A DNA stretch of 38,790 nt, from contig JANXUR010000001.1 of the NCBI GenBank assembly GCA_025356095.1, positions 1 through 38,790 of the forward strand, given 5' to 3'. Shown one piece after another: positions 11,817 to 38,790 of this stretch. The stretch comes from Acidobacteriaceae bacterium (GTDB lineage: Bacteria; Acidobacteriota; Terriglobia; Terriglobales; Acidobacteriaceae). A program made the translations under genes and the position numbers. Numbering within the stretch: position 1 is the first letter of the stretch; each line of letters opens with the position of its first letter. The notes under the pieces were generated by a model that saw only the letters and a list, made by a program, of their open reading frames with translations, did not search any database and was not told the DNA's origin.

Positions 11817-12851
11817 ATGCCCCAAAGAAATCGTGCCGCCTACGCCCTGTCCGACGCGGTTTGGCGTCGTCCGTTGCTGTGCCTCGTGGTGCTGGCAGGG
11901 CTGGCGACTTTCGCCACAGCTCAGCAGGCACCCCCGCCCAGCGACTCACAAGACGAGCCAGTGACCACCCTGAAGGGTGGCATTGACGTAGTTAATGTCT
12001 ATTTCAACGTTAAAGACAAGAAGGGTGGGCTCATTCCGGCGCTAACCAAGGACGAGTTCGACGTCGAAGAAGACGGCACCCCGCAGTCCATCCGCTACTT
12101 TACCGCTGAGACCAACCTTCCCCTGACTCTAGCCATTTTAATTGATAGCAGCCCCAGCCAGGAGCGGGTTCTGGAGATTGAAAAACAGGTGGGCGGCCAG
12201 TTTCTGCGCGAATTCCTTAAGGAAAAGGACGAAGCGGCGATTATCAGCTTCGACTCCACGGTTGACCTGCTGCAGGATTTCACCAATTCCACGCGAATGC
12301 TGTCACGCGGCCTGGAGAAGGCACGGGTTGGCGGTGGGGGTGGTGGATCCATGCCCGGCCTTGGTGGCGGCCCAGTGCCCACCTCCCGGCCCAAGGGCAC
12401 GGTGCTCTACGACGCAGTCTATGTCGCGTCGCATGAAAAACTTTCCAGCGAAGCCGGACGAAAAGCCATCATTCTGCTGACCGATGGCGAAGACCAGGGC
12501 AGCGATCTAACCATCAAAGAGGCCGAAGAGGCCGCCCAGAAGGCTGACACGATTTGCTACGTGCTGCTGATTGCGGATCGCGGTTTTTACGGCGGATTTG
12601 GCTACCACGGCGACTACGAGATGCGCCGTCTGACCGAGGAAACTGGCGGGCGCGTGATTGTGGTGGGTAACAAGCAAGACAAACTCAAGGAAGCCTTTGA
12701 CCAGATTTCCGCCGAATTGCGCAGCCAATACAGCGTTGGATACGTGCCAACCAACCGCAAAAAGGACGGCAGCTATCGCAAGCTTTCAGTCAAGTCGAAG
12801 CAGGGTTACAAGATACAGGCCCGCAAGGGTTACTACGCCACCGGCGAATAG
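11817..12851 (+). CDS. VWFA-related secreted protein 2 (intact MIDAS)
   Basis: Protein of 344 residues of the same family as its divergent neighbour. It has a signal or anchor segment at residues 19-36 (ending TFATAQQ), then GGIDVVNVYFNVKDKKGGLI, and the A domain with a complete metal motif D110-S-S112-P-S114. A glycine-rich loop (GGGGGGSMPGLGGG) lies in the middle, TDGEDQG follows, and the protein closes with LRSQYSVGY and RKGYYATGE. The start ATG 11817 has GAGGAA about 11 bases upstream; an upstream in-frame ATG at 11727 overlaps the divergent gene. It is likely a periplasmic or surface protein. The strong two-way terminator at 12989-13020 ends its transcript. Confidence 0.9.
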   Translation: MPQRNRAAYALSDAVWRRPLLCLVVLAGLATFATAQQAPPPSDSQDEPVTTLKGGIDVVNVYFNVKDKKGGLIPALTKDEFDVEEDGTPQSIRYFTAETNLPLTLAILIDSSPSQERVLEIEKQVGGQFLREFLKEKDEAAIISFDSTVDLLQDFTNSTRMLSRGLEKARVGGGGGGSMPGLGGGPVPTSRPKGTVLYDAVYVASHEKLSSEAGRKAIILLTDGEDQGSDLTIKEAEEAAQKADTICYVLLIADRGFYGGFGYHGDYEMRRLTEETGGRVIVVGNKQDKLKEAFDQISAELRSQYSVGYVPTNRKKDGSYRKLSVKSKQGYKIQARKGYYATGE

Positions 12852-13048: not shown

Positions 13049-14350
13049 CTACTTCACAATGCCACCCTTGCTCTTCTTCACCGGCTGAGCCGAGGCCGCA
13101 CTCGGTGCATAGTAGCCTAGCCGCGCCCGCACTTTGATGTTCTTCCGCCCCGGCGCGTCAATCGAAATCTTGTGGTATCGGCCATCCAGTTGGAAGTTCA
13201 CTGGCCGGTACGATACCCGATACTGCGACCGCAGCTCATCTTGAATCTCAGTAAACGAATCGGCCACATCCTCCAGCTTGAAGGGGAAAAAGGCGCGCCC
13301 GCCCGTGGCGTCAGCGATGCGCTCCAGTATCTTGTCGTCGAGCCCCTTGCTGCCGGTGATATTGGTGCTGATTACGTAGATGATCACTTCGGCGCGTTCC
13401 GCCATATCAATTGCTTCTTCGCGGGTCACGTGGCTGGCCGTGTCGTGGCCGTCGGTCAGCAGAATAATGGCGCGCCGTACCGCCGTCTTGGCTGGCGGAG
13501 CTTTCAGTAACTTGTCACGGCAGGCAAAATACAGCGCGTCATACAGCGCCGTACCGCCGCCGGGCTTCAGCATACGAATGCCTTTGCTCAGCGCCTCTGT
13601 GCTGTCTGTAAAGTCTTGGGTTACCTCAGGCGTTTCGTCGAAGCCGATCACAAACGCCTTGTCCGTTGAAGGCCGCACAATCTGGCTCAAAAATTCAATC
13701 GCCGCTTCCTGTTCAAACTTGAATCGGTCGCGGATGGAGTTGGACGCGTCAATCATCAGTCCCACTTGCAGCGGCAGGTCAGTCTGCGCCGCAAATACAC
13801 TGACGCGTGCCGGGGGCTTGCCATCATCCAGAATGCGGACTTCGTCCTTGGCTAAGTCCTTCACAAAGCGATTGTGCTTGTCCGATGCCGTGAAAATCAG
13901 GTTCACTTCATCTACTGTTACCCGCAGGATCGTATTCTCGCCTTCAGCAGTGTTGTCTTCCGCTGTGCGCGGCGGAGGGTTGCCCGAGTTGTCCAGCTTG
14001 TCGTCAGCGGCATCGGATGCCTTGGCCTCAGACGCGGCAGAGGGCGATTGGCCCGCAGGGGCGGTCGCCTTGGAGGCACCCGCAGTGCTTGTCTGCTGCG
14101 CAGCCTTGGCCTTGTCGGATGCTTGCTGCGCCGCTTGTTGCGCCGCTTGCTTTGCCGCAGCTTCTTTATCCGCAGCCGCCTTGGCGGCCGCATCCTGCGC
14201 TGCCTGCGCGGCCCGCTGTTTTTCCGCGAGGATGGCGGAAGGTGAGTCTGGCAAGTCTTGGGTTGGGCTCTGCGCTTGCGCTGACGCAACCACAAAGCTT
14301 CCAAGAGCCACTGCCAGCAACGCAGTTGCGGGTACGGTTAACAATTTCAT
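13049..14350 (-). CDS. VWFA-related secreted protein 3 with Ala/Lys/Gln-rich helix
   Basis: Protein of 433 residues. A signal peptide (1-26, ending ASAQA) and the motif LPDSPSA (33-39) are followed by an Ala/Lys/Gln-rich stretch (about 42-95), probably a long helix or coiled coil in the style of TolA linkers. Then come a short acidic/Pro stretch and the VWFA-related domain with intact D201-A-S203-N-S205, LLTDGHDTASHVT, LRSQYRVSY and LGYYAPS. The start ATG 14350 has GGAAG five bases upstream; ATG 14362 has none. It follows rluD by 27 bases on the same strand, so it probably sits at the end of that operon. Family role unknown; the helix may span the periplasm or mediate oligomers (inference). 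Confidence 0.88.
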   Translation of the reverse strand: MKLLTVPATALLAVALGSFVVASAQAQSPTQDLPDSPSAILAEKQRAAQAAQDAAAKAAADKEAAAKQAAQQAAQQASDKAKAAQQTSTAGASKATAPAGQSPSAASEAKASDAADDKLDNSGNPPPRTAEDNTAEGENTILRVTVDEVNLIFTASDKHNRFVKDLAKDEVRILDDGKPPARVSVFAAQTDLPLQVGLMIDASNSIRDRFKFEQEAAIEFLSQIVRPSTDKAFVIGFDETPEVTQDFTDSTEALSKGIRMLKPGGGTALYDALYFACRDKLLKAPPAKTAVRRAIILLTDGHDTASHVTREEAIDMAERAEVIIYVISTNITGSKGLDDKILERIADATGGRAFFPFKLEDVADSFTEIQDELRSQYRVSYRPVNFQLDGRYHKISIDAPGRKNIKVRARLGYYAPSAASAQPVKKSKGGIVK

Positions 14351-29671: not shown

Positions 29672-29941
29672 ATGATGCCACTCGCCGAGATTGGCCACCG
29701 CATCGCGGAGGCCCGCCAGTTCCAGCACCTGACCCAGCAGGAGCTGGCGCAACGTGCTGGAATTACGCGCGCTACGCTCTCCCGGCTGGAGAATGGGCAT
29801 CTCGGTGAAATGGGCTTTACCCGCCTCAGCAAAATTCTGTTCATCCTAGGCTTGGAGTTGACCCTTCGCACCTCGAATCGTGGCCGACCGACCCTCGCAG
29901 AGCTGTTAGCCGAGCAGGCGGAGGAGGACTACGATGATTAA
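29672..29941 (+). CDS. hipB: HipB-like XRE-family antitoxin
   Basis: Helix-turn-helix DNA-binding protein of 89 residues. The XRE fold covers about 6-62, with LTQQELAQRAGITRATLSRLENG as the recognition region. The acidic C-terminal tail (LAEQAEEDYDD) overlaps the start of hipA by 8 bases, so the two are translationally coupled. There are two ATGs in a row (29672, 29675) and no Shine-Dalgarno sequence; since TATAGT lies 12 bases before the ATG, a leaderless message is possible. It should bind HipA and repress the operon. Confidence 0.88.
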   Translation: MMPLAEIGHRIAEARQFQHLTQQELAQRAGITRATLSRLENGHLGEMGFTRLSKILFILGLELTLRTSNRGRPTLAELLAEQAEEDYDD

Positions 29942-31205
29942 AATCTGGACCGCCAGCCAGCCCGCCGGACTGCTGGACCGCCCGCCGCTCTCCGAAGACC
30001 CGCGGCAGGAAGGCAGCATCTTCCGCTACTTTGCCGATACCCGACGCGAGAGCGCCATCTCGCTGACCATGCCCACCCGACTCGAAAGCTACAACACCCG
30101 CTATGGTCTGGCACCGTTCTTCGAGATGAACTTGCCAGAAGGCCGTTTGCGCGAGGCTCTGCGCCTGCGCTTCGCGCGGCAGGTTGGGCGGTTTGACGAC
30201 CTCGATCTCCTTGCCCTCACCGGGCGGTCACAGTTGGGGCGCGTCCGCTATACCGGCAATGACGATTCGCTGCAGCACGATGTTCCTTTTCAAAAGGTGG
30301 ACGAGATTCTCGCCATGCGGCGGGGTGGAAACCTGTTCCACGAACTGGTCGCGCAGTTCGACCGCTACTCGGGCATCAGTGGTGCGCAACCCAAGCTTCT
30401 TATCCGGGATGCGGCGGCCTCGGTCACGCTTTCCGGCGGTGGAGGACGTGCGTCTGAAACCTTCAAGAGTGCCACCCATATCGTCAAATTCTGGGAGCAG
30501 ACTGAGTTTCCGCAACTTGCCGCCAACGAGTTTTTCTGCATGACTGCGGCGAAGGCTGCGGGGCTGGAGGTTCCCCCGTTCCAGCTCAGTGAGGATGCCA
30601 TGGCGCTTGTGGTTGAGCGCTTCGATATTTTGCCCGATGGCAGCTTTCTCGGCATGGAGGATTTTTGCGTCTTGAATGCACGGCGTACCGGCGACAAATA
30701 CCGCGGCAGCTACGAGACGGCGATCATGAAGCGGTTTGCCGATTTTGCGCGTACCGGCCCGCTACTGGAAGACTTGGAGCGCCTGTTCGCGCTGATTGCG
30801 CTGAACTGCGCCCTGCGTAACGGCGACGCCCACCTGAAGAACTTCGCGGTCACTTACCGCGAGGTCGAGGGCGAAGTCCGGCTCGCGCCTGTCTATGATT
30901 TGGTCACTACCAGCGTCTACCCGGGACTGGAAGGCGGGCTGGCGCTGACGCTGAACGGCAGCACCCGCTGGCCGGACGCCAAGGCGTTGCAAAAGCTGGG
31001 CGAAACCCGCGCCCACCTGACGCCATCGTCGGTCAAGGCCATCTTGCAACGGCTGGAACACGGCATGGAACAGGCGGCGGGAGAGTTGCGTGCCTACGTC
31101 GCGAGCCATGCCGAGTTCGCGGATATTGGCAGGCAAATGCTCGGCGAGTGGGAAGCTGGAATCCAGCATTCGCTGGGAGGAACGTCGAGGCAAGCGTTGA
31201 AGTAG
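29934..31205 (+). CDS. hipA: HipA-family Ser/Thr kinase toxin
   Basis: Kinase-fold toxin of 423 residues. The N-terminal HipA coupling domain (MIKIWTASQPAGLLDRPPL to QLGRVRY) is followed by SGISGAQPKLLI, the ATP-binding THIVKF, VVERFD, the catalytic-loop ALRNGDAHLKNFAV (Asp and Asn ligands) and the metal site VYDLVTT. In E. coli HipA phosphorylates GltX and induces persistence; the target here is unknown. All catalytic motifs are present, so it is probably active. Overlaps hipB. Three 11-base tandem repeats follow the gene. Confidence 0.93.
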   Translation: MIKIWTASQPAGLLDRPPLSEDPRQEGSIFRYFADTRRESAISLTMPTRLESYNTRYGLAPFFEMNLPEGRLREALRLRFARQVGRFDDLDLLALTGRSQLGRVRYTGNDDSLQHDVPFQKVDEILAMRRGGNLFHELVAQFDRYSGISGAQPKLLIRDAAASVTLSGGGGRASETFKSATHIVKFWEQTEFPQLAANEFFCMTAAKAAGLEVPPFQLSEDAMALVVERFDILPDGSFLGMEDFCVLNARRTGDKYRGSYETAIMKRFADFARTGPLLEDLERLFALIALNCALRNGDAHLKNFAVTYREVEGEVRLAPVYDLVTTSVYPGLEGGLALTLNGSTRWPDAKALQKLGETRAHLTPSSVKAILQRLEHGMEQAAGELRAYVASHAEFADIGRQMLGEWEAGIQHSLGGTSRQALK

Positions 31206-31240
31206 CCGCCGGAGTGAGTGCGCTTCGATGCGAAGAGACG

Positions 31241-31273
31241 CGCATCTCCGGCGCATCTCCGGCGCATCTCCGG
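31241..31273. repeat. Three exact 11-bp tandem repeats after hipA
   Basis: CGCATCTCCGG occurs three times without interruption, followed by a partial unit CGTCCG. The repeat lies 36 bases after the hipA stop, in the leader of the cytochrome gene. Confidence 0.9.
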
Positions 31274-31400
31274 CGTCCGTTCCTGAGGTGGCGCTTGACA
31301 TGCTCGTGGGGTCGAATTAAGGTTCGCAGTGGCGATTGCCGGGTGCGGCTGGCTCCGCCTAGACTCTTTTCGTTTGGACTCTTGGAACCGAGGTGGCCTC

Positions 31401-33161
31401 ATGCAGAAGCGCGTTGTCGCTCTTGTTTTACTTACTTTCACCCTCCTGAGCCTCACGGCCTGCCAAAAGGTACGGCAGGTATCGCAATTGTTCCAGTCGC
31501 GGCCGGGGCAGCACTTGCCCGCCTATCAGCCGGTGGCGAACGTTATGATTCCTGGCCAGAATTGGCCGGTGGGTCAACGGGAGTGGTTCTACCACACCGG
31601 GCAGGGCACGATTTTGCTTCCCTATAGGTGGCTTTTGGCGCTGGAGCAGCCCAAGTTTACCTTGTTCAGTGCGGCACCCAAGTTCAGCGAAACATCCTAT
31701 TTGGCCCGCTTTGGGTTTTTGCCCGACGCCGCTGGTCCGCAGAATCCTGACGGCTTTCCGGTCGGTTTTGCCCGCAGCACGGTGGTGGATCCCAAATCGG
31801 GCAAGTCGCAGGAGATTGTCGGCTTTACCTGCGCGGCCTGCCATACCGGTCAGGTGGAATATCACGGCAAGGCGGTGCGCATTGATGGAGGTGCCTCGTC
31901 GGTGGATTTGGACGATTTACAGATCGAGCTGGGTTACGCCGTTGCCTACACCAAGGTACTGCCGGGACGCTATGCGCGGTTCGAGAAAATCGTGTTGGGC
32001 GAGAATGCCAGCGAGGAAGCCAAACAGCAACTGAAGCAGGAGTTTGACGCAGCCGTGGCTGCGGGCGAAACTGAAGCGCACTATACCCAGAGCATGAACT
32101 TGTTGCCGGTGCGCGGCGGCTTTGGCCGGACTGATGCACTGGGCCGTATTGGCAATTTTGTGTTTGGCACCGAACTCGACCCACAAAACTATCGGGTGGC
32201 GAACGCCCCGGTCAGCGTGCCGCCGTTGTGGTATGCAAGTTGGTTTGCCTGGGTGCAGTACAACGCCTCGATTCAGCAGCCCATGGCGCGGAATATTGGG
32301 GAAGCCATGGGGGTTCGGGCGCGGGTGAATCTCACTGACAAAGACCGCTTGTTCCAATCCACGGTTAACGTGAAGAACTTGCATGAGATTGAAGACCTGC
32401 TGGCCGGGCCGACTGCCTTCAGCGGATTGAAGGCTCCTCAATGGCCGGAGCAGATGCTGGGGCCGATTGATCAGGCCAAGGCGGCGCGCGGCAAGCAGAT
32501 CTATGAGCAGCATTGCCAGCACTGCCACCTGCCCCCGCTCGATTCACCGGAGATTCAGCAGGATCGCTACTGGGAGGCGGGACTGGAAGGCCGTCGCTTC
32601 CTCAAGCTCAACGTGATTCCCCTAGACGAGATTGGCACGGATCCGCTGACTGCCACCAACTTCAACCAGCGAACCGCCGTCACCGGGCCGGTGCTGGGGT
32701 TGGGCACGGCCGCAGCCAAAGACGGGCTGAAGTATATTGGTGCCAAGATCGCCGAGACCAACTATGCGCAACTTGGCGTCTCCCCAGCAGAGCAGGTGGA
32801 GTGGAACGGCTATCGCGAAGACAACATCGTGGCACCGCTGGCCTATCGCGCGCGGCCTTTGAGTGGTATGTGGGCCACGCCGCCGTTTTTGCACAACGGT
32901 TCGGTGCCCAACCTCTATCAAATGCTGCTCCCCGCCGAAAAGCGCGACAAAACCTTCTACACCGGGAGCCGCGAGTTTGACCCGCTGCATGTGGGCTACC
33001 AGGCGGGGAAATTCGAAGGCGGATTCCTGTTCGACACCTCCCAGCAGGGGAACTCCAACGCTGGCCATGAGTTCAGCAACCGGGAAGGCAAAGGCGTGAT
33101 TGGCCCCGAGCTGACCGACGAGGAGCGCTACGCGATCATCGAATACTTGAAGACGATGTAG
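31401..33161 (+). CDS. RoxA-like di-haem cytochrome c lipoprotein
   Basis: Exported protein of 586 residues with a lipobox LTAC (C21), so it is lipid-anchored. It has two c-type haem motifs: C144-AA-C147-H148 and C372-QH-C375-H376. The segment PPLWYASWFAWVQYNASIQ and then QPMARNIGEAMG, and the late YRARPLSGMWATPPFLHNGS, are shared with the RoxA / cytochrome-c-peroxidase-related family, which includes rubber oxygenases. The substrate is unknown; a peroxidase-like or oxygenase role is a family inference. The start ATG 31401 fits the signal peptide; the frame is open from 31329. Lgt in this window would attach the lipid. No electron partner gene is adjacent. Confidence 0.82.
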   Translation: MQKRVVALVLLTFTLLSLTACQKVRQVSQLFQSRPGQHLPAYQPVANVMIPGQNWPVGQREWFYHTGQGTILLPYRWLLALEQPKFTLFSAAPKFSETSYLARFGFLPDAAGPQNPDGFPVGFARSTVVDPKSGKSQEIVGFTCAACHTGQVEYHGKAVRIDGGASSVDLDDLQIELGYAVAYTKVLPGRYARFEKIVLGENASEEAKQQLKQEFDAAVAAGETEAHYTQSMNLLPVRGGFGRTDALGRIGNFVFGTELDPQNYRVANAPVSVPPLWYASWFAWVQYNASIQQPMARNIGEAMGVRARVNLTDKDRLFQSTVNVKNLHEIEDLLAGPTAFSGLKAPQWPEQMLGPIDQAKAARGKQIYEQHCQHCHLPPLDSPEIQQDRYWEAGLEGRRFLKLNVIPLDEIGTDPLTATNFNQRTAVTGPVLGLGTAAAKDGLKYIGAKIAETNYAQLGVSPAEQVEWNGYREDNIVAPLAYRARPLSGMWATPPFLHNGSVPNLYQMLLPAEKRDKTFYTGSREFDPLHVGYQAGKFEGGFLFDTSQQGNSNAGHEFSNREGKGVIGPELTDEERYAIIEYLKTM

Positions 33162-33234
33162 CGGAACTGGCGGGCAGCAAGCCTTTGCGTTGCATCGTTC
33201 GGATGCCTGACCAAGCCGTGAAACCTGTGACTGC

Positions 33235-33268
33235 GCCAGTTGGAGCCGAATCGCAAATTCCAACTGGC
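33235..33268. terminator. Inverted repeat after the cytochrome gene
   Basis: Perfect 10-base arms GCCAGTTGGA (33235-33244) and TCCAACTGGC (33259-33268), extendable with mismatches by a GCGC pair outside. A second perfect 8-base stem GGCGGGGA / TCCCCGCC lies at 33315-33334. Neither has a T-run. They fill the 222-base gap between the cytochrome gene and hisS. Confidence 0.45.
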
Positions 33269-33383
33269 TGCGCCGACAAAGACCACGAATACATCGGCTG
33301 TTGCGCCCAAGAACGGCGGGGATCGTTCCCCGCCCGCAGCCGCCCAACTTGAATCCTGAAGCGCAAAACCTGAAACTAGACAG

Positions 33384-34688
33384 ATGATTAAAGCTGTAAG
33401 AGGAACGCGCGACCTGCTGCCGCCGGAGACTGGCGTGTGGAACTTTGTCGAAGCCACGGTGCGCGAGGTCTTCCGCGCCTACAATTTTCACGAAATCCGC
33501 ACGCCTATTTTTGAATCCACCGAACTGTTTGCGCGGGGCGTGGGTGAAGAGACCGACATCGTCAGCAAAGAGATGTACACGTGGGAGGACCGGGGCCGCG
33601 CGGAGAGTGACAAGGGGCAGTCCCTAACCCTGCGCCCGGAAAACACGGCTGGCGTCGTCCGCGCCTACGTGGAGCACAAGCTGGGCGACCGCGGGCTGCA
33701 GAAGCTGTACTATATCGGGCCGCAGTTTCGGCGGGAGCGTCCGCAGAAGGGGCGCTACCGGCAGTTTTACCAGATTGGTGCTGAGGTGATTGGGCCGACT
33801 GCGGCGGGGAGCGAATCGCCAGCGCGCGACGCCGAGGTGCTGACCATGCTGGCCGATTTGCTGGACCGCCTCGGTGTGCGTGAGTGGCGGCTGGAGTTGA
33901 ACTCGGTCGGGTGCAAGGATTGCCGCCCGCGGTTTAATGAGGCGCTGCGGCGGGCACTGACCGAGCCGGATGAGAACGGCGTGACGCTGGCTTCGCAGAT
34001 GTGCGGGGATTGCCAGCGGCGGGCGGTGACCAATCCGCTGCGCGTGCTGGACTGCAAGGTGCCGGAGGATCAGCCGATGATCGCAACGCTGCCGCGGCTC
34101 AGCGACTATCTGGATGACGGCTGCCGCACCCATTTTGCCGGGGTGACCGCTGTGCTGGATGCGCTGGGCATCGCGTACACGCGCAATGAGCGACTGGTGC
34201 GCGGGCTGGACTACTACACCCGCACGGCGTTCGAGTTCACCCACGGCGCGCTGGGGGCGCAGAACGCAATTCTGGGCGGCGGTCGGTATGACGGCCTGAG
34301 CGAGGCGATTGGCGGGCCGCCCGCGCCGGGCATCGGCTTTGCCATTGGCGAAGACCGGCTGGTGATGACGCTTGCCGAATCAGCGGCCGCAGCCGGATAC
34401 GCGGCGGTCGCGCCGGTGGCGTACGTGGCTCCGCTGGGCGCGGGCATGAACGCCCCTGCCGCAAAGCTGGTGCGCGAGCTGCGCGCTGCCGGGCTGGTGG
34501 TTGATCTGGGCGATGAGACGTTCAAGATCAAGAAGTCGTTTGAAGGCGCGGAACGAGTAAGTGCGAAGTACATTGTGATTTGCGGCGAACGCGAGTTTGC
34601 CGCTGACGCGTTCAATGTGAAAGAGCTTGCCACGGGCGAGCAAGTAACCGTGCCGCGCACGGAGTTGGCGGGGAAGCTGCGGAGGTAG
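33384..34688 (+). CDS. hisS: Histidyl-tRNA synthetase
   Basis: Class II enzyme that charges tRNA-His, 434 residues. Motif 1 region RGTRDLLPPETGVWNFVE, TLRPENTAGVVRAYVEH, motif 2 QFRRERPQKGRYRQFYQ, the HisRS-specific LVRGLDYYTRTAFEFTH, and motif 3 ILGGGRYDGL with GIGFAIGEDRL. The anticodon-binding domain starts near residue 345 (VAYVAPLGAGMNAPAAKL) and ends KLRR. The last 255 bases (34434-34688) are repeated in diverged form at 36591-36846 beyond the next gene, so this 3' end may have been exchanged. The gene is complete and looks functional. Confidence 0.97.
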   Translation: MIKAVRGTRDLLPPETGVWNFVEATVREVFRAYNFHEIRTPIFESTELFARGVGEETDIVSKEMYTWEDRGRAESDKGQSLTLRPENTAGVVRAYVEHKLGDRGLQKLYYIGPQFRRERPQKGRYRQFYQIGAEVIGPTAAGSESPARDAEVLTMLADLLDRLGVREWRLELNSVGCKDCRPRFNEALRRALTEPDENGVTLASQMCGDCQRRAVTNPLRVLDCKVPEDQPMIATLPRLSDYLDDGCRTHFAGVTAVLDALGIAYTRNERLVRGLDYYTRTAFEFTHGALGAQNAILGGGRYDGLSEAIGGPPAPGIGFAIGEDRLVMTLAESAAAAGYAAVAPVAYVAPLGAGMNAPAAKLVRELRAAGLVVDLGDETFKIKKSFEGAERVSAKYIVICGEREFAADAFNVKELATGEQVTVPRTELAGKLRR

Positions 34689-34785
34689 GGGCATGGCGAT
34701 CAGTGCGATGATGTGCGATAGCCCTCGCAAGCGAATGTCGCGCTTCAGTGTCGAGAGAGCGAACCCAGACAAAGGAGATTTCCCG

Positions 34786-36588
34786 GTGAGTCGTCGCGAT
34801 AATCACGTCACATTTCGGCGGGTGTTGGAGCTTTGTCTTCTATTGCCAATAGTCACGACCCTTCTGTATGCGCAAGAAGCATCGTCCACTTCAATTGAGG
34901 GGCTGTGGGGTGCCGAGACGCGCCTGGGCTTGCCCGTTTCCGGAACGCTCACACTCGACGGAACCAGCGACAACTGGAAGGCTACGATCGCTGGCTATGA
35001 GGTGCCGGTAACACGCGATGGTATTCGCCTAGGCTTCAGTCTGCCACATCACCGCGGCTCTTTCCGCGGCCGTTTCGACATTGCTTCCCACTTCTTGCAG
35101 GGGGAGTGGATACAGCCGGGCGGATTGCTGCTGGACGCACGGTACGCGACACCTCTTCACTTCAACCTCGCGTCGGCTGGAATCTGGCGGGCGGAGGTAG
35201 TTCCGCTGGAGGAGCGCTTGTCGGTGTACGTCCTCATTTCTGCGGGCAATGGCGCGCTCCGTGCTGTAGTCAGCAATCCGGAAGCTAACTTGTTTCGTAG
35301 GCGCGTATACGTCGTGACGCAGGACGGAAATCACATCACCTTCGAAGCGAACGGCAAGCGATTCGAGGGCGTCTATGACAAATTGGCTGGGACGTTGACT
35401 ACTCAACTCGTGGACTGGCTTCCCGCCTTCACCCTCACCCGAAGGGATGCCGATGACGCTGCGGGATTTTACCCCCGCGTACCATCCGCCCGACAACATT
35501 GGACGTACGCCGCCCCTATCGACGGTCACGATGGCTGGTCTGTATCCACACTAGCGCACCAAGGCGTAGATCGAGAACCCATTGCAAAGCTCATCAACCG
35601 TATCCTTCAGGCCGATCCAACGGATTCGTCTCTGAGGATTCAAAGTCTCCTTATCGCGCGCCACGGCCACTTGTTACTCGAGGAATACTTCTACGGCTTT
35701 AGTCAGGACCGCGTGCACGACATGCGCTCGGCGGGTAAGACATTCGCACCCGTTCTGGTAGGGCTGGCCAGAGCGCAAGGATCGAAGCTGGGGCCGACGA
35801 CGCCGGTATACCGGCATTTCGGGGAATTACCACTCAAAAATCGCGATGCGCGCAAAGAGCGGATGACACTGCTGGATCTGATGACGATGACCGCTGGCAA
35901 TGCATGCGACGACAATGACGATGCATCGCCGGGCAATGAAGACCGTATGCAGAGCGATGGCCAAAAGATGGACTGGTACAGCTACACGCTAGATCTGCCG
36001 ATGCTAAAGGAGCCGGGCGGCGAGAATGCGATTTACTGCTCCGGCGATCTGAACCTGGTGGGTGGCGTCGTGGCGGCGGCCAGTCATGTCTGGCTGCCGG
36101 AGTTCTTCCAAGACCGCCTCGCACAACCACTCCAGTTCAGTAGGTACTACCTGAACCTGATGCCGAATGGCGAGGCTTATATGGGGGGCGGCGCTTATGT
36201 GGAACCTCGGGATCAGTTGAAGTTGGGCCAGCTGTACTTGTCGGGCGGCGTTTGGAATGGCAAACGATTGGTTGGTGTAGATTGGGTGCGGGACTCTACC
36301 GTCTTGCATGCCAGGTTCTCGCCCGAGAGCAGCCTCGGCCAAGAGCACGGGTACGGATTCGGATGGCACCTCCACACGTTGAAAAGCGGCGGCAAGGCGT
36401 ACAAAGTCTTTGCTGCGGAGGGCAATGGCGGACAGTTTATTTTGGTTGTTCCTGCTTTGGATATGGTGATTGGGATAACGGGCGGCGCTTACGGCGAGTT
36501 CTCACAATGGTACAAGTGGGAACTGGAACTGGTACCTCAGTTCATCATCCCGTCCGTCAAGAGAGACCACCGTAGTGCACCCCGCTAG
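34786..36588 (+). CDS. Secreted serine hydrolase, beta-lactamase class C-like
   Basis: Protein of 600 residues. It has a signal peptide (about 1-30, RRVLELCLLLPIVTTLLYAQ), a beta-rich N-terminal domain (about 38-220) without a clear family, then a penicillin-binding/beta-lactamase fold with S315-A-G-K318 as SxxK, Y417-C-S as the second motif, and GNGGQF near the C-terminus in place of KTG. The GTG start at 34786 has AAAGGAG 8 bases upstream; the frame opens at 34693, just after hisS. Probably periplasmic; the substrate may be a peptide, ester or D-amino-acid compound, not necessarily a beta-lactam. It sits between hisS and a second copy of the hisS 3' end, so it looks like inserted cargo. Confidence 0.85.
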   Translation: MSRRDNHVTFRRVLELCLLLPIVTTLLYAQEASSTSIEGLWGAETRLGLPVSGTLTLDGTSDNWKATIAGYEVPVTRDGIRLGFSLPHHRGSFRGRFDIASHFLQGEWIQPGGLLLDARYATPLHFNLASAGIWRAEVVPLEERLSVYVLISAGNGALRAVVSNPEANLFRRRVYVVTQDGNHITFEANGKRFEGVYDKLAGTLTTQLVDWLPAFTLTRRDADDAAGFYPRVPSARQHWTYAAPIDGHDGWSVSTLAHQGVDREPIAKLINRILQADPTDSSLRIQSLLIARHGHLLLEEYFYGFSQDRVHDMRSAGKTFAPVLVGLARAQGSKLGPTTPVYRHFGELPLKNRDARKERMTLLDLMTMTAGNACDDNDDASPGNEDRMQSDGQKMDWYSYTLDLPMLKEPGGENAIYCSGDLNLVGGVVAAASHVWLPEFFQDRLAQPLQFSRYYLNLMPNGEAYMGGGAYVEPRDQLKLGQLYLSGGVWNGKRLVGVDWVRDSTVLHARFSPESSLGQEHGYGFGWHLHTLKSGGKAYKVFAAEGNGGQFILVVPALDMVIGITGGAYGEFSQWYKWELELVPQFIIPSVKRDHRSAPR

Positions 36589-36590
36589 AA

Positions 36591-36846
36591 CTGGGCACGG
36601 GCATGAACGGCCCCGCCGCAAAGCTGGTGCGCGAGCTGCGGGCCGCCGGACTGGTGATTGACCTGGGCGATGAGAGTTTCAAGCTGAAAAAGTCTTTTGA
36701 GGCGGCCGAGCGCGCCGGGGCGAAGTACATTTTGATCTGCGGCGAGAACGAGGTGAAGGCCGACGCCTTCAACCTGAAGGAGCTTGCCACCGGCGTGCAG
36801 GTGACGCTGCCGCGCGGGGAATTGGCTGGGAAGCTGGGGGGGGTAG
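36591..36846 (+). pseudogene. Detached second copy of the hisS 3' end (anticodon-binding domain)
   Basis: Starts 2 bases after the hydrolase stop codon. It encodes MNGPAAKLVRELRAAGLV and on through ELAGKL: 63 of 80 residues equal the HisRS C-terminus, including the same end point. Lengths are 256 versus 255 bases; the single extra base is a G in a run of eight Gs (36836-36843) that pushes the frame past the stop equivalent (TAG 36844-36846) to 36857. Most changes are conservative, so both copies evolved under selection before they came together. No catalytic domain and no good ribosome-binding site: a remnant rather than a gene, though a free-standing 84-residue domain cannot be excluded. Confidence 0.88.
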
Positions 36847-36917
36847 GGAATGGGTAAGAGATTCTCTGTGCACTATGATCGGGCCGCACATGGTGAGCGC
36901 CGATCGGAGGTTCAACC

Positions 36918-37802
36918 GTGATCCCCAAATTCGAAGCAGTTTGGAACTGGATTACAACGCTAAGCCTGTGGCGGCTGGCTGTGCTTGTATTCTGTTCATT
37001 CTTGGGGTTTCGCGCTGGCACAATCGCGACGCGCTCCCTGTCCGATTGGTATGAGCGCCGCCCTATTGCGGCACACAAATGGCCGGAGACCGATCTTGAT
37101 AGCGCAGGGATGAAAGTCAGGCTCAAGACGGAGTGGAGTGACCTGCTCAGGTATCAATTCGAGGCGGTTCCGAGATCGGATGACTACGCATTCGCGTTCG
37201 ATTTGTCGGCGAGCACGGATCCATCGGCGTTTAGGTTTTATGTTCACTTGCTGGATGAGTCCGGGTTCGAGCTATGCTCGCTAAAGATCTCACCGCAAAG
37301 GGGCGTCAATGGTTCCGGCAAGATCACTCGTCTTAGTTTCAATGGTAGCGATACCGCCTGTGAGCGGAAACTCTACAAGCGAGTAACGAAGTGGAGCGTC
37401 AGTTGGGTGGCGCCGCCGCTGCTCGCCATCAAATCCACCGACATTGACAAAACGCCGAAGCCGGAAGAAAAGACGCCTGCATCCCACCCCAAAACAACCC
37501 CGATTCCTTCTCAACGCAAGAGTGCGCATCAAGCCGCAATTGTGCCTGCGCCTGGCGACAGCAATGGTCAAAACGCAGCCGAACAAGCGTTGGATGAGCT
37601 GTTCACGGGGTACGACTACGTTGAAACACACACTCTGGAGACCCGGTCTGGGATGTCTTTCACAATTCGCAGGAAGGGGGAACAAGATGTTCCGCTGTAC
37701 TGGCGCAACGGCGACAAGCTGCACATCGAATGTCAACCGCACGCGGAGTGCTTAATCGACAACTCGAGGAGGGGTGAGTCGGTCCATGCGACTCCGCACT
37801 AG
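36918..37802 (+). CDS. Unknown membrane-anchored protein
   Basis: Not recognised. 294 residues from GTG 36918, with CGGAGG 7 bases upstream. One membrane segment at about 14-34 (SLWRLAVLVFCSFLGF), so most of the protein is probably periplasmic. Residues 50-165 form a beta-rich domain with two Cys (FELCSLKIS, DTACERKL) that might pair. A Lys/Pro/Ser-rich linker (about 170-215) leads to a small C-terminal domain (LDELFTGYDYVETHTLETR, FTIRRKGEQDVPLYWRNGDKLHIEC) with two more Cys. It follows the hisS remnant and belongs to the accessory stretch. Confidence 0.75.
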   Translation: MIPKFEAVWNWITTLSLWRLAVLVFCSFLGFRAGTIATRSLSDWYERRPIAAHKWPETDLDSAGMKVRLKTEWSDLLRYQFEAVPRSDDYAFAFDLSASTDPSAFRFYVHLLDESGFELCSLKISPQRGVNGSGKITRLSFNGSDTACERKLYKRVTKWSVSWVAPPLLAIKSTDIDKTPKPEEKTPASHPKTTPIPSQRKSAHQAAIVPAPGDSNGQNAAEQALDELFTGYDYVETHTLETRSGMSFTIRRKGEQDVPLYWRNGDKLHIECQPHAECLIDNSRRGESVHATPH

Positions 37803-37804
37803 TC

Positions 37805-37822
37805 GGTATATTTGGGTATACC
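37805..37822. promoter_or_regulatory. Inverted repeat before the small Cys protein
   Basis: GGTATA (37805-37810) and TATACC (37817-37822) with a 6-base centre, three bases after the previous stop and 64 bases before the next start. Could be an operator or part of a promoter. Confidence 0.35.
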
Positions 37823-37886
37823 TTCCGATTGCGTTAAGCTCTGTCTAAGGGCTGCAGCTGGGCCCCCGAAAGGAGATACTCTATTT

Positions 37887-38081
37887 ATGACCGACATGAA
37901 TTGCGCACACACAGAGCGTGCTGACGCGTTCCTCGAAGTAAGAGTTTGGACGGAATGTCGTGGTGGCAGTCTGGACGGCACCATGATGTCCCCCAGTGCG
38001 GCGCCTGTCTCAATCTGTCGTAAGTGTGGGATGGCGGAATTTCAGGTGCCGCTCGGCCCATACGGCACGTATACGCTTTAG
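37887..38081 (+). CDS. Small Cys-containing protein of unknown function
   Basis: Protein of 64 residues, not recognised. It starts at ATG 37887 with a strong AAAGGAGAT about 10 bases upstream (the frame opens at 37812 without such support). It has C6-AH, C24 and the pair C44-RK-C47, which together could form a zinc site (CxxH ... CxxC). A clean intrinsic terminator follows, so it is a one-gene transcription unit. Good translation and termination signals are the main reason to accept it. Confidence 0.65.
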   Translation: MTDMNCAHTERADAFLEVRVWTECRGGSLDGTMMSPSAAPVSICRKCGMAEFQVPLGPYGTYTL

Positions 38082-38110
38082 CATTCATCATTCATATTGA
38101 ACTAATCACT

Positions 38111-38142
38111 CCGAGGCTGCCTTCGAGCAGCCTCGGCTTCTT
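38111..38142 (+). terminator. Intrinsic terminator after the small Cys protein
   Basis: Perfect 10-base stem CCGAGGCTGC / GCAGCCTCGG (38111-38120 and 38127-38136) with a CTTCGA loop, then CTTCTT. It lies 29 bases after the stop codon. The following 170 bases to vapC hold nothing I can identify. Confidence 0.75.
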
Positions 38143-38310
38143 AGTGGGCTGGCGGCCCATTCAAGTGGGGTTCGCTTGAGTGGGGTGCGGCCGGCAACCT
38201 TGCTGCCATCGGGACGACCGGCATGCCAAGGCAAGCGGATGCCCATCCATCGTCGCCATCCCTTCCCAAAGCCCCCGGTGTGCTGATTCAAGCGAAAAGC
38301 TCGGCTACGG

Positions 38311-38742
38311 CTAGAACAGCGACAGCCCCGCCGCCTTGGCGAGTTTTGCTTGCCGCGTGTCGAGCGTCCAAAACTGTCGTGCGCCGAGTTCGAGTGCACT
38401 GGCAACGTGGAGTGAGTCCAGGCTGCGTCCGCCGATCTTCCAGACGTGATCTCGTGCCAATCGCTCGGCGGTGGCATAAGTCAACTCCGGCAGGTCGCCC
38501 TTGGTCCACACTTGCGCCGCATCCACGTCGAAGTGGCTGCGCGCCGCGTCAGCATGGGAACCAGCGATTCGCCGGGTCAGCAACTGCTGCGCCACAGCAT
38601 GTTCCCACTCCACTTGATGCAGAGGCGTAACCCACAGGCGGATGCCTTGAGAGAGCCTGTTCCACACTGCCGCGCTGTGCCCATCCGGCAGGTAGGCTGC
38701 GACCAGGACCGAGGTGTCCGCATAGATTAGGCGCGAATTCAT
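38311..38742 (-). CDS. vapC: PIN-domain toxin, VapC family
   Basis: Predicted ribonuclease toxin of 143 residues with the PIN acidic residues: D9 in IYADTSVLVA, E45/E47 in QVEWEHA, D109 in GRSLDSLHVASAL and D128 in FWTLDTRQ. In the family the toxin cuts tRNA or rRNA. The ATG at 38742 overlaps the stop of an upstream frame (ATGA), the usual coupling with an antitoxin gene, which is cut off by the window edge. Confidence 0.9.
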   Translation of the reverse strand: MNSRLIYADTSVLVAAYLPDGHSAAVWNRLSQGIRLWVTPLHQVEWEHAVAQQLLTRRIAGSHADAARSHFDVDAAQVWTKGDLPELTYATAERLARDHVWKIGGRSLDSLHVASALELGARQFWTLDTRQAKLAKAAGLSLF

Positions 38743-38790
38743 TCGTCGCGATGGCGCGTCTGCAGGAACAGCGCCACACTGTCGAGTTTA
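38739..38790 (-). CDS. C-terminal end of the VapC partner antitoxin (partial)
   Basis: The minus strand from the window edge reads KLDSVALFLQTRHRDE and stops with TGA at 38739-38741, overlapping the vapC start codon by 4 bases (ATGA). Only the last 16 residues are visible, so the antitoxin family cannot be named; position and coupling support the role. Confidence 0.6.
   Translation of the reverse strand, partial: KLDSVALFLQTRHRDE

Follow-up and report, generated by a model that had tools for sequence, protein, structure and literature searches.

Homology-facilitated illegitimate recombination (HFIR) has been proposed (PMC5361080) as the source of the orphan 3' regions found in effector loci of type VI secretion systems (T6SS) and in Rhs loci, and its reported products, as given in PMC3240628, are insertions of about 1 kb paired with deletions of about 1 kb. 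The non-homologous side of such exchanges often carries 3-10 bp of microhomology. According to PMC4129442, phage 21 swaps 165 bp of the icd 3' end for an alternative end. Here we describe a locus of related geometry in the genome of a soil bacterium of the Acidobacteriaceae, whereby the 3' end of hisS, the essential gene encoding histidyl-tRNA synthetase (HisRS), is found a second time directly behind a serine hydrolase gene. The window, that is, the whole stretch of DNA that was analysed, is a complete contig (C39) of 38790 bases from a genome of 3.53 Mb in 120 contigs.

Like the orphan 3' regions of the T6SS and Rhs loci, the locus appears to have a constant 5' part and a replaced 3' part with cargo behind it and the old 3' end downstream, and the insertion is the size of one gene; unlike them, the gene concerned is that of an essential housekeeping enzyme, the scar spans 82 codons and the event is a single step rather than an array. 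With insertions of the icd type it would share a housekeeping gene kept complete by an incoming 3' end, yet no recombinase or other element genes were seen between the ends, which enclose 2.2 kb and a single cargo gene. A partial tandem duplication with a pseudogene copy likewise yields a direct repeat of a gene end; here, however, it is the upstream copy that has changed more at codon positions 1 and 2, and the cargo is unduplicated. The kind of event is already known, and what is unusual, and makes the case moderately interesting, is its occurrence in an essential tRNA-synthetase gene.

Two diverged hisS ends and the gene between them

The intact hisS gene (33384..34688, plus strand) encodes a full-length HisRS of 434 residues, with Pfam matches to tRNA-synt_His and HGTP_anticodon above cut-off. 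Its 3' end (34434..34688, plus strand; codons 351-434, anticodon-binding domain), the working copy, recurs on the same strand at 36591..36846 as a remnant comprising codons 351-432, free of stops and followed by an extra G in a run of eight. The repeat search delimits a gapless direct repeat of 263 bases (34434-34696 and 36591-36853; 79% identical, spacing 2157), and over 82 codons (34434-34679 versus 36591-36836) the copies share 80% of their DNA and 66 of 82 residues, all 16 residue differences falling within the first 76 codons. A search of the own genome at the DNA level matches the hisS end in these two places only, and since the second match has an E-value of 1.7e-59 a chance origin of the repeat is excluded; the one other direct repeat of at least 40 bases in the whole window is a 48-base pair at 71% identity. 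While hisS terminates in CGG AGG TAG, the extra G in the terminal run shifts the frame of the remnant past the old TAG and on to a TAA at 36855-36857. The original prediction that the hisS 3' end recurs behind a hydrolase gene, gapless save for a single extra G, is thus borne out by the repeat and by the own-genome search, with the G now located in the terminal G run; its tally of 63 shared residues in 80 was off by one, the present alignment giving 64.

The two ends diverged in the manner of selected genes. Their pairwise ratio of replacement to silent change (dN/dS) is 0.195 (silent differences, Sd, 27.5; replacement differences, Nd, 21.5), which lies inside the range of 103 pairs of relatives at similar silent divergence (pS), with a median of 0.22 and 59 of the 103 at or above the observed value. 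When the remnant was simulated as neutral since the split and the working branch was held at 0.12, the mean dN/dS rose to 0.56 and none of 300 replicates reached 0.196 or less; a remnant ratio (omega) of 0.5 reached the observed value in 9% of replicates and one of 0.3 in 39%, either being compatible with this test taken alone. Branch lengths by codon position were estimated on a fixed topology with 29 of 99 relatives (those left after five too-partial hisS loci and five duplicates had been dropped). At third positions the branches are similar (0.389 for the working end, 0.480 for the remnant), whereas at positions 1 and 2 they measure 0.144 and 0.020, respectively, making the working end the faster-changed copy. 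Tajima counts at positions 1 and 2 gave p-values of 0.005-0.039 with four outgroups and of 0.059 with a fifth, the outgroups not being independent of one another; at position 3 four of five outgroups were non-significant (p up to 1.0) and the remaining one, L073, gave p 0.050. With the silent rate taken as neutral, the share of the remnant's branch that escaped selection is, as a rough bound, no more than 10-13%, and both ends were under selection for most of their separate history.

Residue comparisons complete this picture. The remnant resembles the hisS ends of relatives better than the working end does at 85 of 114 loci, with 22 opposite and 7 ties (by subtraction of the five own loci: 83, 19 and 7 of 109), and it carries the commoner residue at 11 of the 16 differing sites; given that the working copy has the common residue at the other five, including E419 and V423, drift of the remnant may have begun. 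Because positions 1 and 2 of the remnant have hardly changed, it follows that both ends were functional while they drew apart, most simply in a pair of related genomes, and that they met recently. The original prediction had argued that the second end is not a duplicate decayed in place, for which dN/dS and the codon-position branch lengths provide support, and that an origin in another lineage is the simplest reading, which the likeness of the divergence to that of two selected genes upholds.

The cargo is intact. A spacer of 97 nt on the plus strand (34689..34785), with AAAGGAG at 34771-34777 and no unusual fold (z -0.05), leads from the hisS stop to the hydrolase gene (34786..36588, plus strand), whose probable start is the GTG at 34786 although its open reading frame (ORF) is open from an ATG at 34693. 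The 631-residue ORF matches the beta-lactamase-like family PF00144 (E 6e-23, residues 318-595) and holds an SxxK motif, SAGK, at residue 346, aligned to SA[GSA]K in 10 of 10 homologues; from domain and motif the product is predicted to be a class C beta-lactamase-like serine hydrolase, with an N-terminus that, by eye, looks like a putative signal peptide. NCBIfam returned matches far under cut-off only, and the nearest solved structures are Lsa45, a class C beta-lactamase-related hydrolase, and 6-aminohexanoate-dimer hydrolases. By the ORF list and the Pfam scan it is the single long gene between the copies, short overlapping ORFs lying outside that scan, and its codon usage differs from that of core genes.

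The zone that holds the right-hand joint (36559..36591), delimited by the tails of hydrolase homologues, the repeat start and a word comparison, extends from the last codons conserved among the homologues to the first base of clear hisS homology. As the hydrolase C-terminus is complete and resembles that of its 10 homologues, whose tails vary in length, and as the repeat begins at 36591, two bases beyond the TAG at 36586-36588, the joint should fall no more than about 30 bases away from the stop codon of the hydrolase; the longest word common to 36541-36590 and hisS codons 1-350 has 7 bases.

Origin of the second end

We interpret the locus as probably, though by no means with certainty, the trace of a single recent event in which DNA was exchanged with a near relative by HFIR. 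The donor would have been a linear fragment from a relative at the level of a congener (the hisS ends being 80% identical), on which the hydrolase gene came after either a hisS end or an entire hisS. On its left side the fragment would have recombined homologously with the resident chromosome, in hisS or upstream of it, and on its right side an illegitimate join near the hydrolase stop would have linked it to codon 351 of the resident hisS, so that hisS remained intact and functional, the genome gained the hydrolase and the final 82 resident codons were left behind as a scar. Should a whole hisS have entered, resident codons 1-350 would have been lost, a loss that would resemble the reported HFIR products; with a crossover inside hisS, the end alone would be foreign. 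One-sided homology together with an illegitimate joint would account for a complete hisS, a whole cargo gene, the abrupt start of the remnant and a young remnant of old divergence. We infer transfer between genomes, its direction and the one-sidedness of the homology, with entry by competence or another route; dprA is present, and as it is equally found in 10 of 14 control genomes it is little informative on competence.

That the other parent was a near relative is suggested by two observations: the ends are sisters in the protein tree (support 100/94, over 82 columns only and with the bootstrap not settled), and they share four residues rare among relatives. In 355 pairs of relatives with equally similar ends the hisS bodies are about 84% identical, and the closest body here reaches 80% at most. 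The question of which copy is native to the body received mixed answers from the body-identity profile, the rare residues, the body tree, the placements with their approximately unbiased (AU) tests and the window-wise ratios. These last, taken against 12 selected of the 99 relatives, were 1.75 for the body, 2.04 for the intact end and 1.69 for the remnant, with overlapping site-bootstrap intervals. The AU test, with p-values taken for 11 selected attachment branches of 195, rejected neither end at the body's best place (intact end 0.154, remnant 0.21), and as to a crossover point within hisS, the placements of body, intact end and remnant are not significantly different. A foreign origin of the working 3' end, as originally proposed, is not established, the body fitting neither end significantly better by this test; the clustering of the copies that had been named as a sign of an old duplication was indeed found, but without a close relative in the set it is also compatible with two congeners. 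A stretch of hisS (34518-34643) has a GC content of 0.52 versus 0.66 in the body, which was dropped as a sign of foreign DNA, codon usage of the intact end lying within that of 189 overlapping 82-codon windows from the body, aspS and the upstream gene (33% of windows at or below it; 68% for the remnant).

Several points weigh against an exchange with a near relative. Such events are experimentally rare, as PMC3240628 reports; neither donor nor empty site was seen, the genus being represented by one genome, and among the other hisS ends found those closest to the remnant share 77-78% identity with it. Placement at the body's best branch costs the intact end less log-likelihood (dlnL -4.1) than it does the remnant (dlnL -9.2), an order that opposes the simple view of the remnant as native to the body, while the identity profile over relatives tracks the body better for the remnant (rho 0.36) than for the intact end (rho 0.18). 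Codon usage fails to separate the two ends, and microhomology at the joint cannot be demonstrated, the parent sequences being unavailable for comparison.

A family search covered 398 genomes drawn from a larger group, 358 of which have a hisS-end match at 1e-7. Only six of these have two matches, and only in the window's genome are they adjacent; in the other five the matches are on separate contigs, corresponding to fragments of hisS cut off by the end of a contig (G085, G170), to distinct hisS genes located on different contigs (G035, G084) or to matches on two contigs, one of them at a contig start (G379). None of the 357 other matching genomes thus has a second adjacent hisS end, in a search that would miss strongly decayed ends and sites at contig ends. 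Similarly, a scan of 106 loci for repeats of 3' ends alone up to 8 kb downstream (1.10 Mb, 2229 ORFs of at least 120 aa, many of them not genes, E 1e-8) yielded nothing besides the hisS of the window, which appeared both on the gene's own strand and as its antisense shadow. As far as searched, the event is a one-off, and with adjacent ends in one genome of 358 and the hydrolase as sole long cargo, the proposal that the hisS 3' end is an integration hotspot or targeted site finds no backing.

A site-specific insertion by a small or trans-mobilised element bearing an alternative hisS end, with a 26-base identical stretch (34458-34483 and 36615-36640) as crossover core, appears quite unlikely in this light, even though the layout, a complete gene followed by cargo and then by the displaced native end, matches icd-type insertions. 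The 26 bases are the longest identical stretch (the next has 13) and lie near the repeat start, and changes are fewer among the first 27 codons, where shuffling gives p 0.02 for the 8 changed codons; a run of identical codons as long as the longest observed is nevertheless ordinary (p 0.16). Neither the ORF list nor the Pfam scan of the hydrolase revealed a recombinase gene between the copies; four matches to tyrosine-recombinase or integrase domains exist elsewhere in the genome, on contigs C56, C17 and C6, and action in trans is conceivable. The remnant protein had no match in 50,697 phage records, nor the interval DNA in 72,556 plasmid records, and in the open-licence literature we found no paper that treats hisS together with attB, integrase and integration site; PMC8616872, which came up for HisRS and genomic islands, concerns CRISPR and has no bearing here. 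A tandem duplication inside the genome, with the copy decayed in place, would explain why the two ends are mutually closest in the set, but it conflicts with dN/dS, the codon-position branch lengths and the stop-free frame, is contradicted by the relative rates and would also require the loss of a second hydrolase copy, rendering it extremely improbable. A chimeric contig, in which assembly of a metagenome bin would have joined the ends of two co-occurring strains, is very unlikely: there are 120 contigs, and 26 identical bases could join alleles at small word sizes, yet any word common to hisS codons 1-350 and the zone before the joint has 7 bases at most, and the listed contamination is 0.01.

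Least improbable among the rivals, though still unlikely, is an old duplication within the lineage in which the downstream copy has been selected as an anticodon-binding-domain peptide or as a regulatory RNA or peptide of HisRS, its translation perhaps coupled from the hydrolase stop, 14 bases before the ATG at 36603. The sister relation of the copies, the 82 stop-free codons and the nearly frozen positions 1 and 2 all agree with it, as does an 84-aa ORF in the ORF list (36603..36857, plus strand) that starts at the domain edge with an internal Met codon of hisS and matches HGTP_anticodon at 51.5 bits (cut-off 21; working gene 54.1), while scoring far under the cut-off of the hisS model TIGR00442. 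Such selection would, however, have to hold the remnant tighter than the working enzyme, inspection by eye disclosed no clear ribosome-binding site ahead of the ORF, no sigma-70-like promoter was found in 33100-38790 (other promoter types lying outside the scan), and the adjacent second end is missing from the other 357 matching genomes. We give little credence to a specific form of this idea, namely that the remnant is a working stand-alone HisRS anticodon-binding domain of 84 aa, held tighter than a fast, exchanged 3' end of the enzyme; if true, the essential synthetase would share its work with a detached copy of the domain by which it reads tRNA.

Surroundings of the locus

In relatives, some of whose fetched loci overlap one another, the usual order is a hexapeptide-repeat gene (PF00132; presumably gamma-carbonic-anhydrase-like), hisS, a DUF4440/SnoaL-like gene in 43 of 109 loci, and aspS. 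All 74 fetched loci that hold both genes have the hexapeptide-repeat gene ahead of hisS in the same orientation (median distance 170 bases, above 600 in 10 of the 74), and in all 96 that hold hisS and aspS the latter lies downstream, again in the same orientation, at 51 to 5340 bases (median 646). In the window the hexapeptide-repeat gene, at most 600 bases from hisS in 64 of 74 relatives, is separated from it by genes at 29672-33161, comprising a helix-turn-helix and HipA pair (HipBA-like) and a di-heme cytochrome c peroxidase gene (NF040606).

The hydrolase itself is patchily distributed, with homologues of at least 45% identity and nearly full length in nine other genomes of the 398. Four contigs selected for carrying both genes have a homologue (35-46% identity) within about 9 kb of hisS, but not in the same arrangement, the homologue lying either on the far side of aspS or farther upstream than the gene ahead of hisS. 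To the right of the remnant, a 294-aa protein without a Pfam or NCBIfam match is encoded at 36918..37802 (plus strand), and a search of 150 family genomes detected it in none of the 149 others. Neither it nor the hydrolase matched anything in the hisS loci of 109 relatives, many of which extend less than 2 kb downstream.

Beyond the 294-aa protein gene, near the right end of the hisS contig, lies a PIN-domain gene (38311-38742) that is 83% identical over 125 bases to another (L115:2853-3287) located upstream of aspS, on contig C22; the 929-base query had no further match in the genome. With aspS, the second PIN gene is on another contig, of 3488 bases, and the two PIN genes may bracket one enlarged hisS-aspS interval. 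Beside the second PIN gene, a transposase-like fragment (L115:2965-3486; PF01527, HTH_Tnp_1, just over cut-off) runs off the end of the aspS contig. The hisS locus took in several genes, and the joining of the two contigs is a candidate only. Elsewhere in the window, an inverted repeat of 59 bases (12465-12523 and 13413-13471; 75% complementary, 889 apart) possibly represents two related genes in opposite orientation.

A probable scar beside an essential gene

The locus offers a readable scar of cargo entry beside an essential gene, in which the incoming DNA would itself mend the end of the gene into which it breaks. In T6SS and Rhs loci this geometry is linked with the acquisition of new toxin modules, and its appearance at hisS suggests a general process that is only noticed more readily where arrays accumulate. 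Moreover, the comparison of silent with replacement changes in a seemingly dead copy provides a simple test to tell such a scar from a decayed duplicate, one that can be applied across many genomes.

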